Of a stretch of 64,000 nt of DNA, positions 28,234-40,197 are shown piece by piece. The stretch is from Comamonadaceae bacterium OS-4 (lineage in GTDB: Bacteria > Pseudomonadota > Gammaproteobacteria > Burkholderiales > Burkholderiaceae_C), in the NCBI GenBank assembly GCA_027924025.1, contig AP026970.1, positions 2,936,501-3,000,500 on the forward strand. The letters run 5' to 3'. The position numbers and the translations under genes were made by a program. The number at the start of each line of letters is the position of its first letter. The stretch's first letter is position 1. Under the pieces are notes generated by a model, which saw nothing but the letters and a program-made list of their open reading frames with translations, had not been told where the DNA came from and did no database searches.

Positions 28234-28746
28234 TTAAGCAGCTTGCTTGCGGCGGCGGGCGATAGCACCCATCACGCCCAGACCGGCCAACAACATGGCG
28301 TAGGTTTCTGGCTCAGGTACAGGAGCTGCAGTCAAGGCAACACCGTAAGTACCACCGTTGATGCCAGTCGCAACGCCTGTGATGTCGATGTGGTAGTTGC
28401 CAGCAGCAGGCAGGTTGAAGGTGTAACCGGTGCCATTGCCAGCAAACGAGCCGTAGTTGACGCTGCCGTTAGGGTGGCTGTTGTTCCACAGGTTCACGGT
28501 CAAATTGGCGATATCCAAAAAGGTCAACGATGCAAAAGACAGCTTCAGGCTCGTCGCAGCGCCAGTCAGGTTCGAAGGAGCTGCGATAGAGAAGTTGATG
28601 GTGTCTTGAAAGGAGCCTACTGTATGGATGAACGATTGTGAAGTCGTTCCGATCACGCCAGCGTTAAAGGTGGTAGCTTGTGCGGAGCCAGCTGCCAAGG
28701 CGGACACAGCAATGGCCAAAGCCACGCTAGTTTTTGTGAAGTTCAT
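28234..28746 (-). CDS. PEP-CTERM sorting-signal protein (FxDxF type)
   Basis: A 170-aa exported protein with an N-terminal signal peptide (TSVALAIAVSALAAGSAQA) and a textbook C-terminal PEP-CTERM signal: VPEPETYAMLLAGLGVMG followed by the basic stop ARRRK. The early GSFQDTINFSI motif matches the FxDxF family. It is expected to be cut and surface-sorted by an exosortase, presumably XrtB encoded at 39.3 kb. ATG at 28746 is chosen because the signal peptide starts there. An exact 21-bp element upstream is shared with the epsA promoter region. Low-complexity Thr/Gly/Asn content suits a matrix protein. Confidence 0.9.
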   Translation of the reverse strand: MNFTKTSVALAIAVSALAAGSAQATTFNAGVIGTTSQSFIHTVGSFQDTINFSIAAPSNLTGAATSLKLSFASLTFLDIANLTVNLWNNSHPNGSVNYGSFAGNGTGYTFNLPAAGNYHIDITGVATGINGGTYGVALTAAPVPEPETYAMLLAGLGVMGAIARRRKQAA

Positions 28747-28900
28747 GTTTATCCCTGTAATGTTGATTGCGACAGCGACAGAATTTGCCGCTGCTCGCAA
28801 GCCCATTATCAAAAACATCCGCCAATCAATCGATAGTCCAATCCGACTACAAGTTGGTCAAAAGCGTGAAAAAAGTCACACTTTTTGACCCTCAGCAGCA
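28747..28900. other. Spacer between manC and the PEP-CTERM gene
   Basis: AT-richer, about 150 bp. Besides the 21-bp dyad (listed separately) it has, on the minus strand, TTGACC-N17-GACTAT as a weak sigma70-type candidate and TGG-N8-TTG at 28826-28840, a degenerate sigma54-like spacing lacking the invariant GC. Confidence 0.35.
28863..28883 (-). promoter_or_regulatory. CRP/FNR-like dyad, copy upstream of the PEP-CTERM gene
   Basis: On the minus strand it contains TGTGA-N6-TCACG, one base from the CRP half-site pair TGTGA-N6-TCACA. All 21 bases are identical to 31658-31678 in front of epsA. It lies 117 bp from the start codon. Confidence 0.65.
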
Positions 28901-30349
28901 TCAACGACCGTACACATCCTCGAATCGCACAATGTCGTCTTCACCCAGATAGCTGCCCGACTGCACTTCAATCATTTCCAGCGCCAGCTTGCCCGGGTTT
29001 TCCAGTCGGTGCGTCGTACCCAGGGGGATATAGGTCGACTCGTTTTCCGAGAGCAACAGGGTCTTTTCGCCCACCGTCACCTTGGCCGTGCCACTCACCA
29101 CAATCCAATGCTCGGCGCGATGGTGGTGCATTTGCAATGACAAGGCAGCCCCCGGCTTCACCACGATCCGCTTCACCTGGAAGCGCTCGCCATGGTCAAT
29201 GCTGTCGTACCAGCCCCATGGACGAAACACCTTGCGGTGCGCCTGCCCCTCACTGCGGCCGGCTTGCTTCAGGCGGTCCACAATCTTCTTCACGTCCTGG
29301 GTTTTGTTTTTATGGGCGACCAGAATCGCATCCGCCGTCTCAACCACAATCAAATCGTCCAAACCCACACAGGCAATCAAGCGCCCCTCCGACAAGGCCA
29401 GGGTATTGCGGCTGTCTTGCATCAGCACATCGCCTTGCGCCACATTGCCCGCATCGTCCTTGGGGAGCACGTTCCACAAAGCTTCCCATGCCCCGACGTC
29501 CGACCAACCGGCAGACAGGGGAATCACCACCCCCGTAGGCAAACCTTCAAGCACTGCACCGCTCTGGCCAGCGAGCCGCTCCATCACCGCGTAGTCAATC
29601 GAGTCACTGGGGCAGGCGCTAAAAGCCTCTTTGCCCACACGCACAAACTCACCGTCCGCACGCCCCTCGCTCCAGGCCGTCGCACAAGCCTGGGCAATAT
29701 CAGGGCGGCAGCGCTCCATGGCCGCCAACCACACCGACGCTTTCATCATGAACAAGCCACTGTTCCAGGAGTACGTGCCTTCATCCAAGTACGCCTGCGC
29801 GGTTTGCAAATCAGGCTTTTCCACAAAGCGTGCAATTTGCTTGGCACCGTCTGTGCCAAAAGCTGCGCCTGACTGGATGTAGCCATAGCCCGTTTCAGGC
29901 GCGTCCGGGGTGATGCCAAAAGTCACCACCGCACCCGCTTGCGCCAACTGCGCCCCCTTGACCACCGCAACCCGGAAAGCCGCGCCATCCATGATCACGT
30001 GGTCTGCCGGCATCACCAGCAGCACCGGGTCCGCTCCGTTTTTAATAGCAGCGTGCGCAGCAATGGTGAGGGCTGGAGCCGTATTTCGCCCCAAAGGCTC
30101 CAACACCACCGTCCCCGGCTTGCCCATCAGACGCATCTGCTCGGCGATCACAAAACGGTACTCCTCGTTGCACACCACCATCGGCGCCGCCAGCTCTACA
30201 CCGGCAATCCCCTCGACGCGGCGCACCGTCGCCTGCAACAGCGAATCCTCGCCAATCAAAGGCAGCAATTGCTTGGGGTACTTCTCGCGGGACAAAGGCC
30301 ACAAACGGGTGCCGGAGCCGCCCGACAAAACCACGGGTTGAATCAACAT
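28901..30349 (-). CDS. manC: Mannose-1-phosphate guanylyltransferase / mannose-6-phosphate isomerase
   Basis: Bifunctional type II enzyme (482 aa) making GDP-mannose from mannose-1-phosphate, with a C-terminal cupin phosphomannose isomerase domain. The N-terminal GGSGTRLWPLSREKYPKQ pyrophosphorylase motif and FVEKPD are clear; the isomerase cupin shows the metal-binding QMHHHRAEHWIVVSGTA motif. ATG at 30349. It follows the nucleotidyltransferase gene by 24 bp on the same strand. Supplies GDP-mannose for gmd/fcl and mannosyltransferases. Confidence 0.95.
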   Translation of the reverse strand: MLIQPVVLSGGSGTRLWPLSREKYPKQLLPLIGEDSLLQATVRRVEGIAGVELAAPMVVCNEEYRFVIAEQMRLMGKPGTVVLEPLGRNTAPALTIAAHAAIKNGADPVLLVMPADHVIMDGAAFRVAVVKGAQLAQAGAVVTFGITPDAPETGYGYIQSGAAFGTDGAKQIARFVEKPDLQTAQAYLDEGTYSWNSGLFMMKASVWLAAMERCRPDIAQACATAWSEGRADGEFVRVGKEAFSACPSDSIDYAVMERLAGQSGAVLEGLPTGVVIPLSAGWSDVGAWEALWNVLPKDDAGNVAQGDVLMQDSRNTLALSEGRLIACVGLDDLIVVETADAILVAHKNKTQDVKKIVDRLKQAGRSEGQAHRKVFRPWGWYDSIDHGERFQVKRIVVKPGAALSLQMHHHRAEHWIVVSGTAKVTVGEKTLLLSENESTYIPLGTTHRLENPGKLALEMIEVQSGSYLGEDDIVRFEDVYGR

Positions 30350-30373
30350 TACCAATCCTTCACAAGTCAAAAA

Positions 30374-31477
30374 TCAGGCGCGGGCATCGCCCCAGCGCAG
30401 GCGCGAGGTGTCGTCGCCGGCATACAGCGTCTCGCCATAGCGGTTCACGCAATACAAGCGCGAAACAATCATTTCGTGGAAGTGCATATCCGGCGCAATC
30501 CGGGTGTACTCGAACAAAATGCCCCGCGTAATGCGCGCCCCCGAGCGGATCACACTGCCGTGCCCGATCCAGGCCGGCCCGATGATGGTGGCGCCCTCTT
30601 CAATCTTCACGCTGGAGCCGATGTACACCGGCCCCTCAATCTTCACCTTGCCCCACGGAATGCTGGTGTTCAGGCCCACCCACACACCGGGCTGGACCTG
30701 TTTGCCGGGCATCGGCATGTTTTCCACCTCGCCCTTCAAAACCCGCTGTAGCACCGTCCAGTAATCACTGACCCGGCCGATATCAATCCAGTGAAACGGT
30801 CGGTTCTGCACATAAAACGGCGATCCATCCTGCGCAAGTCGCGGAAACAGCTCCGAGCCGATGTCGTACACCGTGTCCTTGGGCACTTTTTCCAGGATTT
30901 CGGGCTCAAAAATATAGATGCCGGTGCTCGCCAAAGTGGACTTGGCATCCTCCGGCTTGGGCTTTTCCTGAAACGAGCGAATCCGCCCATCCTCATCCGC
31001 TACCACCATGCCGTAGTTCTGCACCTCTTGCAGCGGCACCTCCAGCGCCACCACACTGGCCAGCGCGCCTTTGGCTTTGTGCTCGGCAATGGCGGCGGTA
31101 ATGTCGAGGTCGATCAGCGCATCCCCGCACAGCACCAAGGTGGTTTCATCAAAGAAACCGCTGAAATCCTGAATCCGCCGCATACCGCCCGCCGAGCCCA
31201 TGGGGCGCGGCAATATATCGCCATGCTCGCGCACCCCCTCGTAGGAGTAGGCAATCTCCACCCCCCAGCGGCTTCCATCGCCAAAATACTGCTCGATCCG
31301 CTGGTGGTGATACGCCACGTTGATGATGATTTCGCGGATGCCATGCCGCGCCAGGTGCTCGATCAAATACTCCATCACCGGCTTGCCCAAAATAGGCACC
31401 ATCGGTTTGGGCAAGTCTTTGGTGAGCGGGCGAACCCGTGTGCCCTGGCCTGCAGCCAAGATCATTCCTTTTGCCAT
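30374..31477 (-). CDS. NDP-sugar nucleotidyltransferase with left-handed beta-helix domain
   Basis: A 367-aa sugar-1-phosphate nucleotidyltransferase. The N-terminal catalytic domain has LAAGQGTRVRPLTKDLPKPM, GSAGGMRRIQDF and FQEKPKPEDAK; residues after about 250 form hexapeptide-type repeats (GPVYIGSSVKIEEGATIIGP). It resembles eukaryote-like mannose-1-phosphate guanylyltransferases (GMPP type) and glucose-1-phosphate enzymes; the sugar cannot be fixed from motifs. It is divergent from epsA and upstream of manC, so a role in precursor supply for the polysaccharide is likely. Confidence 0.85.
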   Translation of the reverse strand: MAKGMILAAGQGTRVRPLTKDLPKPMVPILGKPVMEYLIEHLARHGIREIIINVAYHHQRIEQYFGDGSRWGVEIAYSYEGVREHGDILPRPMGSAGGMRRIQDFSGFFDETTLVLCGDALIDLDITAAIAEHKAKGALASVVALEVPLQEVQNYGMVVADEDGRIRSFQEKPKPEDAKSTLASTGIYIFEPEILEKVPKDTVYDIGSELFPRLAQDGSPFYVQNRPFHWIDIGRVSDYWTVLQRVLKGEVENMPMPGKQVQPGVWVGLNTSIPWGKVKIEGPVYIGSSVKIEEGATIIGPAWIGHGSVIRSGARITRGILFEYTRIAPDMHFHEMIVSRLYCVNRYGETLYAGDDTSRLRWGDARA

Positions 31478-31657
31478 TTTTACTCCCGTGATCTGATGTA
31501 ACTCGCTCCACAAAGCGCGCGCTTCATACCTCAAAAGTGTAATGGGTCGGGCATCGCTCTTTCGACCCCATTTGCGCACTTTCAGCCCTCATCCGGCCGC
31601 TATACGCGCGACACCCAAGCGATACAAAGCCGACACAAAAGTCAAAATTCTCTAGGT

Positions 31658-31678
31658 AAGTGTGACTTTTTTCACGCT
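31658..31678 (+). promoter_or_regulatory. CRP/FNR-like dyad, copy upstream of epsA
   Basis: TGTGA-CTTTTT-TCACG within a 21-bp block identical (opposite orientation in the window, same orientation relative to its gene) to 28863-28883. It lies 129 bp before the epsA ATG and 180 bp before the divergent nucleotidyltransferase start, so it could serve either. Confidence 0.65.
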
Positions 31679-31778
31679 GATGGAACTTCAATTGTCAAAA
31701 ATTAGGGGATTCACCCATTTGGGGGATAGGCCTAATCATTCGGACTACGTAACATCGCGGCTTCGCTGTCACCCTAGC

Positions 31779-31807: not shown

Positions 31808-32611
31808 ATGTCTTTGTTGCCCTCGCTCTCTACCGAGGATCTCCATCACTACCACCGCGTGGTCACCCACTCGGTGGAGGTGCGCAGCCATTTCGACATG
31901 CTCATCTGGCTGCAGGGAGACATGCAGAAATACCTGCCACACGACATCCTGATCGCAGCTTGGGGTGATTTCAGCAGCGGCCATGTGCAGCACGACATCA
32001 TCTCCGCCCTGTCCGGCGTGCGCTCGCATGCGGCGCAGTCCGAGTTTTTGTCACCGCTCATGGTCAATCTGTTCAACCGGTGGAATGAATTCGGCAAAAA
32101 GCCTTTCAGCCTCAATGCCGGCGACTCCGGCTTCTCGCTGGACGAGTTCGGCCTCAAAAGCGCCCTGGGCGGCGCACTGCTCAGAATGCGCAGCGCCACC
32201 ATCCACGGCATTACCGATGAGCGCGGCAGCCATGACTGCGTCTATGTCGTCTTCAGCGCCCGCAATCAGTTCACCGACCTGGAGCGCAATGCCATGGCCA
32301 TGGTCTTGCCGTATATCGATACCGCGCTGCGCCAAGTCGAACACCTGCCCCACCAGTCCGGCGTCACCTCGTCCGCACCGGCCAGCCAGGCACCCGAAAC
32401 AAAAATGCCCGAGCCCGATGTCCTCACCGAGCGCGAAGCCGAAATCCTGAAGTGGGTCGCCCTGGGCAAAACCAACCCCGAAATCGGCAGCATCCTCGAC
32501 ATCAGCGCGTTCACCGTCAAAAACCACATGCAACGTGTTTTCAAAAAACTCGATGTCTCCAACCGCGCCCAAGCCGTGGGCAAATTCCGGGCATGGGTCA
32601 ACCATGTCTAA
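31808..32611 (+). CDS. epsA: LuxR-family transcriptional regulator EpsA of the XrtB/PEP-CTERM locus
   Basis: A 267-aa regulator. Residues 1-190 form an EpsA-type N-terminal domain (FDMLIWLQGDMQKYLPHDILIAAWG) without visible autoinducer-domain or phospho-acceptor signatures. The C-terminal LuxR/FixJ helix-turn-helix is clear (LTEREAEILKWVALGKTNPE, ISAFTVKNHMQRVFKKLDV). ATG at 31808 gives MSLLPSLS; a TTG at 31796 is possible. It overlaps epsB by 8 bp and heads the operon, so it probably controls it and perhaps itself. Confidence 0.9.
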   Translation: MSLLPSLSTEDLHHYHRVVTHSVEVRSHFDMLIWLQGDMQKYLPHDILIAAWGDFSSGHVQHDIISALSGVRSHAAQSEFLSPLMVNLFNRWNEFGKKPFSLNAGDSGFSLDEFGLKSALGGALLRMRSATIHGITDERGSHDCVYVVFSARNQFTDLERNAMAMVLPYIDTALRQVEHLPHQSGVTSSAPASQAPETKMPEPDVLTEREAEILKWVALGKTNPEIGSILDISAFTVKNHMQRVFKKLDVSNRAQAVGKFRAWVNHV

Positions 32612-38444: not shown

Positions 38445-39292
38445 ACAACAGCACCAAAACCATTGGCGACATTCTGGTTGCCACCGGCCGCCTGACGGTG
38501 GAAGACGCCGCCCGCATCGTCGAGCGCCAGCGCAAAGACCAGGTGCAGTTTGGTGAGGCAGCCCTTGCCCTGAAGGTGCTGAGCAAAGACGATATCGACT
38601 TTGCACTGAGCAAGCAGTTTGACTACTCCTACCTCAGCGACCAAGACCAAAGCGTCAGCCCTGAGCTGGTAGCCGCCTACAAACCCTTCAGCCGCGTGGG
38701 CGAAAACCTGCGCGCCGTGCGCAGCCAGCTCATGCTGCGCTGGTTCAACACCGACCCCGCCCGCAAAGTTATGGCCATCGTGAGCCCCGGCAATGGCGAA
38801 GGCCGCAGCTTTGTGGCAGCCAACCTGGCGATTGTGTTTGCCCAGCAAGGCGAGCGCACATTGTTGATTGATGCGGACATGCGCTCCAAGCCCGAGCGCG
38901 GGCAGCAAGCCCTGTTCAAGCTCGGCAAGAGCGCCGGGTTATCGGCCATTCTGGCCAACCGCGCGGGCCTGGAGTCCGCACAGCTGATCCCCGGCCTGCC
39001 GGGCCTGGCAGTGCTGCCCGCAGGCGCCACCCCACCCAACCCCCAAGAGCTGCTGGGTCGACCCGCCTTTGGCGACTTGCTGCGCGCCGCCAGCCAGCAG
39101 TTTGATGTGATCATCATCGACACCCCTGCCGGCAGCGACTTTGCCGACGCTGAAATCACCGCCGCCCGCGCCGGTGCTGCCCTCTTGGTGGCCCGCCAGC
39201 ATGTGAGCCTAGTGCCCCGCGCCACCCAACTGGCCCGCCGCCTGCAAGACAGTGGTGTTGCGCTGGTGGGCTCGGTACTCAACGACGCATGA
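38441..39292 (+). CDS. epsG: Chain-length tyrosine-kinase-like ATPase EpsG
   Basis: A 283-aa cytoplasmic BY-kinase-like ATPase partner of EpsF. An N-terminal ~80-residue segment resembles the GspE/PilB N-domain (GDILVATGRLTVEDAARIVE). The kinase part has a Walker A-like VSPGNGEGRSFVAANLA, Walker A' TLLIDADMRSKP and Walker B-like VIIIDTPAGSDFADAE. I see no tyrosine cluster at the C-terminus, so classical autophosphorylation is doubtful. Overlaps epsF and xrtB by 4 bp each. Confidence 0.9.
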   Translation: MNNSTKTIGDILVATGRLTVEDAARIVERQRKDQVQFGEAALALKVLSKDDIDFALSKQFDYSYLSDQDQSVSPELVAAYKPFSRVGENLRAVRSQLMLRWFNTDPARKVMAIVSPGNGEGRSFVAANLAIVFAQQGERTLLIDADMRSKPERGQQALFKLGKSAGLSAILANRAGLESAQLIPGLPGLAVLPAGATPPNPQELLGRPAFGDLLRAASQQFDVIIIDTPAGSDFADAEITAARAGAALLVARQHVSLVPRATQLARRLQDSGVALVGSVLNDA

Positions 39293-40197
39293 GCCCCACC
39301 ATGAATCACGCTGATACCGGCAAACCCACGCTACCCGCAAAGCTACTGGCCTGGCTACCCGTCATGCTGGGGCTGGCGGCGCTGTACCTGCCCAGCCTGT
39401 ACGACTTGTTTACCGGCATCTGGGCGAATGATGCCCAGATGCACGGCCCTATCGTGCTGGGCATTTCGTGTTGGCTCATTTACCGCAACTGGCCCGCGAT
39501 GTTGGAGGCCAGCCGCGGCGAACAACCCAGCGCATGGGGTTGGCCGGTGTTTGTGTTCGGGCTGCTGCTCTATGCGCTGGGCCGCTCGCAAGACATTTTG
39601 ATTTTTGAAATCGGCTCGGTCATCTGGCTGCTGATAGGCCTTGCCCTGCTCAACTTTGGCCCCAAGGCGCTAAAGGCGCAGTGGTTTGCGCTGTTTTTTA
39701 TGTTGTTTATGGTGCCCTTGCCCGGTGCTGTGGTGGACACCGTGACCATGCCCATGAAGATGGCTGTGTCTTATGTGGCAGAGCATGTGCTGTTTTGGGT
39801 GGGCTACCCCATTGGCCGCAGCGGTGTGATTTTGCAAATCGGGCAATACATGTTGCTGGTGGCAGATGCCTGCGCTGGCCTGCACACCCTACTGACGCTA
39901 GAGGCACTGGGCCTGCTGTACCTGAACCTGGTGCGCCGCGATTCATTGTTTCGTAACGTGGGCCTTGCAATATTGATCGTGCCGATTTCGTTTACCGCCA
40001 ACGTGATCCGCGTGATGGCACTCAGCTTGATCACCTACCACTTTGGCGACGAGGCCGGACAAGGCTTTTTGCACGGCTTTGCCGGCATGGTTTTGTTTTT
40101 AAGTGCGTTGTTGCTGATCATCGGATTTGACGGCTTGCTGGTCACTTTTGAGCAATTCAAAAGCGGCCGAAAAGTAGCTGCAAAGGGTATGGCATGA
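39289..40197 (+). CDS. xrtB: Exosortase B
   Basis: A 302-aa multi-span membrane transpeptidase-like protease that processes PEP-CTERM proteins. About eight helices are visible. The catalytic triad is present: Cys195 in ADACAGLHTLLTLEALGLLY, Arg241 in TANVIRVMALSLI, and His262 in FLHGFAGMVLF. The likely substrate in view is the PEP-CTERM protein at 28.2 kb. ATG at 39289 overlaps the epsG stop; an ATG at 39301 is an alternative. The gene overlaps epsI by 4 bp. Confidence 0.95.
   Translation: MSPTMNHADTGKPTLPAKLLAWLPVMLGLAALYLPSLYDLFTGIWANDAQMHGPIVLGISCWLIYRNWPAMLEASRGEQPSAWGWPVFVFGLLLYALGRSQDILIFEIGSVIWLLIGLALLNFGPKALKAQWFALFFMLFMVPLPGAVVDTVTMPMKMAVSYVAEHVLFWVGYPIGRSGVILQIGQYMLLVADACAGLHTLLTLEALGLLYLNLVRRDSLFRNVGLAILIVPISFTANVIRVMALSLITYHFGDEAGQGFLHGFAGMVLFLSALLLIIGFDGLLVTFEQFKSGRKVAAKGMA

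Follow-up and report, generated by a model that had tools for sequence, protein, structure and literature searches.

The window analysed here, a stretch of 64,000 nucleotides from Comamonadaceae bacterium OS-4 (contig AP026970.1), contains two identical copies of the 21-bp sequence AAGTGTGACTTTTTTCACGCT, one on the reverse strand (28863-28883) upstream of a gene for a PEP-CTERM protein and one on the forward strand (31658-31678) upstream of epsA, which encodes a LuxR-type regulator and opens an eps cluster with the exosortase gene xrtB among its members (Table 1). The first-pass annotation of this DNA had placed identical sites at these positions, 117 and 129 bp before the respective start codons; direct extraction from the window bears out the identity, the distances are right to within one base (ATGs at 28746 on the reverse and 31808 on the forward strand), and the gene names given there are correct (NF038126, FxDxF PEP-CTERM protein; TIGR03020, EpsA; TIGR03113, XrtB). 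Sites of the regulator CRP consist of TGTGA-N6-TCACA half-sites, with their N6 gap, at activating distances; the core of the 21-mer, TGTGA-CTTTTT-TCACG, keeps 9 of the 10 half-site bases in both window copies, and several relatives have 10/10. The copy at the PEP-CTERM gene is embedded in a longer imperfect palindrome, GGTCAAAAAGTGTGA...TCACGCTTTTGACC, at window positions of about 28850-28890.

A scan of the whole genome (4,068,203 bases in two contigs, 4.07 Mb), which had been suggested along with that annotation, found the 21-mer with up to three mismatches at these two places of the window and nowhere else, with no match in the reversed control. The 18-bp core, at the same tolerance, occurred on average 0.05 times in 100 shuffles of the window versus two observed occurrences. 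Genome-wide, the looser consensus TGTGA-N6-TCACR is close to chance level (6 matches on the forward and 7 on the reverse strand versus 2 and 5 in the control), and with one mismatch it gave 8 matches in the window versus 6.3 expected; most of the six other consensus places inspected lie in possible coding frames. We therefore rejected the consensus on its own as a regulon definition (13 rows versus 7 in the control). Because the consensus alone is insufficient, the dyad is judged functional on its exact identity, conservation and spacing, on which both identical sites look like real control elements.

Table 1 Predicted control elements and genes in the window.
Feature	Position	Strand	Remarks
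CRP-like dyad, PEP-CTERM promoter	28863-28883	-	core 28865-28880; centre ~74.5 bp before predicted transcription start
TAGTCC-N4-GGACTA box, TAGTCGGATTGGACTA	28834-28849	-	11/12; predicted activator site, centre ~-43.5
Predicted -10, GATAAT	28805-28810	-	same place as the fixed -10 in the promoter alignment
PEP-CTERM protein gene, FxDxF family	28234-28746	-	170 amino acids, signal peptide; NF038126, E 3.2e-30
CRP-like dyad, epsA promoter	31658-31678	+	core 31661-31676; centre ~93.5 bp before predicted transcription start
Box 2, TCACCC-N4-GGGGGA	31711-31726	+	predicted epsA activator site, centre ~-43.5
Degenerate TAGTCC-like stretch	31732-31747	+	between box 2 and -10; 7/12 here, 10/12 in L004
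Predicted epsA -10, TAACAT	31750-31755	+	box 2-to-(-10) distance as in TAGTCC promoters
epsA, LuxR-type regulator	31808-32611	+	GerE helix-turn-helix; TIGR03020, E 4.9e-76; PF00196; LuxR-type fold matches
xrtB, exosortase B	39289-40197	+	TIGR03113, E 9.3e-127; downstream, same cluster as epsA
Mannose-1-phosphate guanylyltransferase/mannose-6-phosphate isomerase gene	28901-30370	-	between both sites; TIGR01479
Sugar-1-phosphate nucleotidyltransferase-like gene	30374-31477	-	divergent from epsA; ATG 31477 by eye

Promoter comparison establishes two related predicted architectures. At epsA, the CRP-like dyad is followed exactly 50 bp downstream by a putative second site (box 2) and then by a -10-like hexamer; at the PEP-CTERM gene, it is followed 31 bp downstream by a different palindrome (TAGTCC-N4-GGACTA, the TAGTCC box) and then by a predicted -10 element at the equal distance from its box. 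The predicted transcription starts, about 7 nt beyond these -10 elements, are near 28798 for the PEP-CTERM gene and near 31762 for epsA. The dyad positions, about -74.5 and -93.5 from the predicted starts, are compatible with activation.

The TAGTCC box was first suggested by eye from such a comparison. We assembled 139 PEP-CTERM hits (122 from a genus-wide search, 16 of the 17 in OS-4 and one in locus L083), of which 116, from 15 genomes, had flanking DNA, the 49-residue frame L049 and the hits of genomes that were not fetched being left out. Start codons were chosen by signal peptide; four hits with a poor start or a short upstream region were dropped, and removal of 20 redundant promoters from the 112 kept left 92. 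The 15 genomes were divided into group A, those with the dyad at epsA, and group B, the others. Among all 4096 hexamer palindromes with gaps of 0-8 bases, TAGTCC with a gap of 4 ranks first in both groups, occurring with at most one mismatch in 21/67 nonredundant promoters of group A and 21/25 of group B; the best listed non-overlapping palindrome in group A reaches 6/67, and the dyad itself, ranked as TGTGAA-N4-TTCACA, is found in 4/67 (11/67 with two mismatches). Together, the box is present in 42/92 promoters, versus 0/92 in each of 20 shuffles of the upstream regions, and at least 10 of its 12 bases are found in 68 of the 112 promoters. In the OS-4 genome, all five distinct places with at most one mismatch precede PEP-CTERM genes. 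The TAGTCC box is the specific mark of the putative exosortase regulon.

When the promoters are aligned on the box, the following bases tend toward TTG (TCG in the PEP-CTERM promoter of the window), and a -10 element comes next at a constant distance: A at offset 33 and T at offset 37 occur together in 39 of the 49 promoters with at least 11/12 box bases, and other offsets between 25 and 43 reach at most 6/49. Because the -10 lies at a fixed distance, the box centre falls about 43.5 bp above the predicted transcription start. This agrees with the palindrome centre of around -42 to -43 and the sigma-70-type -10 element expected for class II activation by a LuxR-type protein; with respect to the predicted start, the TAGTCC box occupies a class II activator position.

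The same arrangement is found well outside OS-4. The box followed by TTG, with at most one mismatch, gave 72 rows in 19 of the 61 genus genomes, versus 6 rows in the reversed control. A wide scan of 84,980 species genomes with a pattern of box, TTG, A33 and T37 returned 84 stretches, of which 80 loci (L204-L283) with 83 matches are listed; arithmetic from the pattern length at equal base frequencies gives an expectation of about 30 chance matches. Among the matches listed, the records come mainly from Rhodoferax, Curvibacter, Pseudorhodoferax, Comamonadaceae, Rhodocyclaceae, Methylobacillus, Gallionella, Nitrosospira, Propionivibrio and Accumulibacter; other phyla contribute single records. 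A strict test found a PEP-CTERM gene after 44 of the 83. By a wider test, 47 precede a full PEP-CTERM gene, 7 a signal-peptide gene cut off by the end of the available DNA, 7 a gene for a membrane tail without PEP (including a full xrtB in L264 and a piece of xrtB in L255), one a further xrtB piece (L270), one a gene for a cyclic-nucleotide-binding protein and 20 other genes; among these 20, L217 had passed the strict test, in which L254, L263 and L268 were PEP-CTERM-like. An order-wide scan with the strict 15-base pattern matched 2 of 300 genomes (9 of the 300 from the family of OS-4), namely OS-4 and G353 (L203), where a signal-peptide protein follows the box. Taken together, these comparisons establish the TAGTCC box as a predicted promoter mark of many PEP-CTERM genes in the genus and in other Betaproteobacteria.

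In relatives, the dyad recurs at epsA with differing sequence (e.g., ATGTGAATTAGTTCACAT). Requiring at least 9 of the 12 bases of GTGTGA-N6-TCACAC, we found it at 9 of the 21 epsA-type loci scanned, OS-4 included, beginning 147-149 bp before the start codon; single weak matches at other positions occur in L004, L005, L020 and L024. In all nine genus genomes carrying the dyad at epsA, the distance from it down to box 2 is exactly 50 bp. Among PEP-CTERM promoters with a TAGTCC box, 12 of 46 in group A have a dyad (at least 7/10) centred exactly 31 bp above it, the next commonest distance occurring three times, and 0/22 in group B; orthology exists among some of these promoters, so the 12 are not 12 independent events. 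At the higher threshold of at least 8/10, the 14 group A rows have spacings of 31 bp (ten rows) and of 21, 32, 41 and 75 bp (a single row for each). The distances of 21, 31, 41 and (at epsA) 50 bp differ by steps of about one helical turn. The interpretation given in the first-pass annotation is partly supported: its idea of one regulator site shared by both genes is right in outline, and is supported by the conservation of the site at epsA in nine genomes and by its fixed spacing in PEP-CTERM promoters.

As to which protein binds the dyad, that annotation had offered either a CRP/FNR-type regulator or a PrsR-like activator, and its first option stands as plausible on the half-sites, the N6 gap and an encoded CRP-like protein. 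The helix-turn-helix of the OS-4 protein at C1:2761926-2762117 aligns with that of Escherichia coli CRP (SREMVSR versus SRETVGR), and this protein is the best candidate reader of the dyad. HTH_Crp_2 matches number from 4 to 25 per genome in the 19 genus genomes searched, with 15 in OS-4, and other dimeric regulators can generally use such dyads; another CRP/FNR paralog, or an unrelated repressor, might therefore bind the dyad in place of the CRP ortholog, an alternative to be taken seriously even though we regard it as the less probable one. The pattern RE-x-x-x-R, which we take to represent the recognition-helix residues of the CRP type, speaks against it, being found only in the C1:2761926-2762117 protein among the nine CRP-family proteins inspected, as does the match of half-sites and gap to CRP and the position of the dyads, which suits activation better than repression. 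The dyad resembles CRP/Vfr-type sites in its TGTGA-N6-TCACA form and activating distances, and differs from them in having a second box as its partner at a constant distance.

For the TAGTCC box, the regulator encoded at the locus itself is the most likely reader, i.e., EpsA, a candidate suggested by its distribution and its protein family. EpsA exceeds the model cut-off in 18 of the 61 genus genomes. An EpsA match at E 4e-40 or better is found in each of the 19 box-bearing genomes; 17 of these matches exceed the cut-off and two fall short of it (G002, 139 bits; G040, 150 bits), and all 39 genomes without an EpsA match also lack the box (Fisher p 5e-13 for co-occurrence across the 61 genomes, not corrected for relatedness). 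Among the 23 genomes with PEP-CTERM hits, the box is present in 19 of the 20 with EpsA and in 0/3 without it. A further check drew on 38 genomes chosen by eye from the 80 wide-scan loci, some of them overlapping the genus set: EpsA was found in 28 of the 32 judged to carry a true box from their betaproteobacterial or PEP-CTERM context versus 0 of the 6 judged to be chance hits. The family scan of eps-cluster proteins recognised no DNA-binding regulator other than EpsA among those it covered, and the recognition helix of its helix-turn-helix is conserved in ten aligned proteins, including Rhodoferax and Methylobacillus records. The best Foldseek matches of its AlphaFold model (predicted local distance difference test score pLDDT 78.9, predicted template modelling score pTM 0.61) are the acyl-homoserine lactone receptors QscR, RhlR and CviR, quorum receptors of the LuxR type, although the overall superposition is low (template modelling score of ~0.4, root-mean-square deviation of ~15); no Pfam autoinducer domain is among the matches at E 1 or better.

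Box 2 offers a different assignment, in which EpsA activates its own gene through box 2 and another LuxR/NarL-type regulator reads the TAGTCC box. Box 2 (at least 10/12) lies at an activator position in 13 of the 15 listed epsA promoters, those that lack the dyad among them, it has the 6-4-6 form of the TAGTCC box, and OS-4 has nine matches to the EpsA model, a count that includes EpsA itself and in which most matches cover just the LuxR-type helix-turn-helix; the absence of EpsA from four box-bearing genomes, detailed below, adds to this side. The genomes G046 and G047, however, have EpsA and many TAGTCC boxes with no perfect box 2 (10 and 11 one-mismatch matches) and no box 2 at epsA (L016, L017), which makes box 2 the less likely site for EpsA. 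In addition, TCACCC-N4-GGGGGAT with at most one mismatch occurs 9 to 32 times per genome in 15 genomes (versus 0 to 2 in the control), several matches preceding other, unrelated genes, by eye with a -10-like hexamer at a similar distance, while TAGTCC boxes track EpsA across the 61 genomes. We infer that box 2 marks a wider regulon than the eps locus under a regulator other than EpsA, and consider EpsA self-activation through box 2 unlikely. TAGTCC boxes (11-12/12) also lie 169-195 bp above box 2 in the epsA promoters L003, L005 and L009, where they may serve a neighbouring gene, and the degenerate TAGTCC-like stretch just ahead of the epsA -10 in the window is a possible feedback site.

Placing EpsA on the TAGTCC box, we propose that the dyad forms the distal half of a two-part activator promoter. 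From the dyad, usually placed 31 bp (in one case 41 bp) upstream of the TAGTCC box and 50 bp upstream of box 2, a bound CRP-family protein would assist RNA polymerase in the manner of CRP at sites of class I and III. Together with a further regulator on box 2, the CRP-like protein would drive epsA; EpsA, once made, would act at the TAGTCC box as a class II activator in contact with the -35 region and switch on the exosortase substrates, with CRP-like help at some promoters. This arrangement recalls the lux operon, in which a LuxR-type dyad lies at about -42 to -43 with a CRP-type site further upstream and a weak -35; it shares with lux-type class II promoters the place of the LuxR-type dyad, the upstream CRP-type site and the weak -35, and differs from them in the sequence of the box and in having secreted proteins as targets. 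The model as a whole, with promoters of dyad plus box, a CRP-like protein and EpsA on the TAGTCC box, is in our judgement fairly probable. More tentatively, and at a lower confidence, TAGTCC-N4-GGACTA could be the operator of a LuxR-type receptor, EpsA, that runs a dedicated XrtB regulon across the Betaproteobacteria, taking in PEP-CTERM genes, PEP-CTERM-like proteins of 56-57 residues, a stand-alone cyclic-nucleotide-binding protein encoded next to epsA and, in certain species, xrtB; one branch would have added a CRP-type input at fixed spacing, combining cyclic-nucleotide with diffusible or surface signals as in the lux operon.

Several observations weigh against this model. Relatedness inflates the co-occurrence p values; G034, G036 and G044 have EpsA-like genes and no box; the discriminating class, genomes with PEP-CTERM genes and no EpsA, holds only three members; and four of the 32 genomes with a likely true box (G364, G366, G373 and G380) have no EpsA match. 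Since EpsA and XrtB share one locus, co-occurrence cannot single out EpsA, and in the eps-cluster scan three of the ten proteins of one batch gave no family match and some frames were left unscanned. On the side of the CRP-like protein, nine of the 15 OS-4 HTH_Crp_2 hits were inspected. As to the elements themselves, only 9 of the 15 usable PEP-CTERM promoters of OS-4 reach 10/12 of the box, with two mismatches the box shows no genome-wide enrichment (66 rows per strand versus 205 in the reversed control), and the dyad is lacking in group B promoters but for one 8/10 match at 42 bp. Because it is missing there, the dyad is optional and looks like a helper element.

The second option of the first-pass annotation, PrsR, finds no support. 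Haft et al. (2006; PMC1569441) proposed control by PrsR with sigma-54 for many PEP-CTERM genes and left further regulators and DNA motifs to be found; PrsR is thus a published PEP-CTERM regulator (PMC1569441, PMC9850573), and DVUA0057 of Desulfovibrio vulgaris bound predicted PEP-CTERM targets in a DNA-affinity-purified-chip (DAP-chip) experiment (PMC3333781). In OS-4, the best PrsR match (TIGR02915) scores 327 bits versus a cut-off of 502.6, the ground on which we rejected PrsR/sigma-54 control, and PrsR exceeds the cut-off in 4 of the 61 genus genomes, only one of which (G014) has the box, leaving 18 of the 19 box-bearing genomes with no PrsR over the cut-off. Matches to the -24/-12 pattern TGGCAC-N5-TTGCW are scattered over 17 OS-4 loci with no consistent place, the best of them (10/11 bases, L036) lying inside a predicted gene, and it is a -10 that is fixed instead; moreover, the box lacks the TTTACA end of published motif 1. 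Control of these genes by PrsR is therefore very improbable. The OS-4 type resembles the PrsK/PrsR regulon (PMC1569441) in having a dedicated cis-element before many single PEP-CTERM genes and a regulator gene of the kind often near exopolysaccharide genes, and differs in its -10 promoter, its palindrome and its EpsA-bearing XrtB locus. Likewise, pepA of Aquincola tertiaricarbonis (PMC9850573), which is linked to flocs, is a PEP-CTERM gene under specific promoter control, in that case from an RpoN-dependent -24/-12 promoter, unlike the -10 with class II box found here. The weakest alternative, that the 21-bp identity is a chance match or a functionless trace of recent local duplication, is barely credible and was rejected: the two copies do lie close together, as expected after local duplication, but the sharing is limited to the dyad region (an ungapped repeat finder extended it no further than 21 bp), and relatives keep dyads of differing sequence at the same place and fixed spacing.

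Environmental bacteria that form flocs and biofilms carry PEP-CTERM proteins in large numbers on their surface, and in the parts of the literature covered by our search the PrsR/sigma-54 regulon is the only kind described for the genes of these proteins. No earlier report of the TAGTCC box was found in the open-licence papers searched: the sole TAGTCC match in a search pairing it with PEP-CTERM was a 16S ribosomal RNA probe, none of these papers mentioned XrtB together with exosortase, and searches on EpsA, PEP-CTERM regulons, methanolan and CRP brought up no regulator of this kind among the results listed. The box, defined from sequence, gives a testable regulator and allows the regulon to be listed in any genome; it suggests which signals decide the timing of matrix protein production, and helps find members too short for easy annotation. 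Such a member may follow a box-like site (10/12 with TTG) at C1:195745 in OS-4 (L400), where a 56-residue protein has a signal peptide, a membrane tail and RRR with no PEP motif; its relatives follow boxes in L367 (G033), L369 (G058) and L371, which is L279 (G059), with a 57-residue version in L223. A box with at least 14/15 bases including TTG also precedes a stand-alone cyclic-nucleotide-binding protein in five genus genomes, namely L379 (G046), L382 (G025), L384, which is L212 (G012), L389 (G031) and L390 (G040), and in L223. This protein has 173-174 residues and a PF00027 domain (tested on the L382 protein) with no helix-turn-helix, and in G025, G031 and G046 its gene is found downstream of epsA, no more than about 2 kb away.

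The box can also stand directly before xrtB itself, as it does in some relatives, where the gene is full length in L264 and incomplete in L255 and L270, from one isolate. In Pseudorhodoferax (L209, L221 and L240), box-bearing genes encode proteins of 110-120 residues with a PEP-CTERM-like tail and no PEP. At the OS-4 locus, the sugar-1-phosphate nucleotidyltransferase-like gene, for which the family scan used the frame 30374-31579, may share the epsA dyad.

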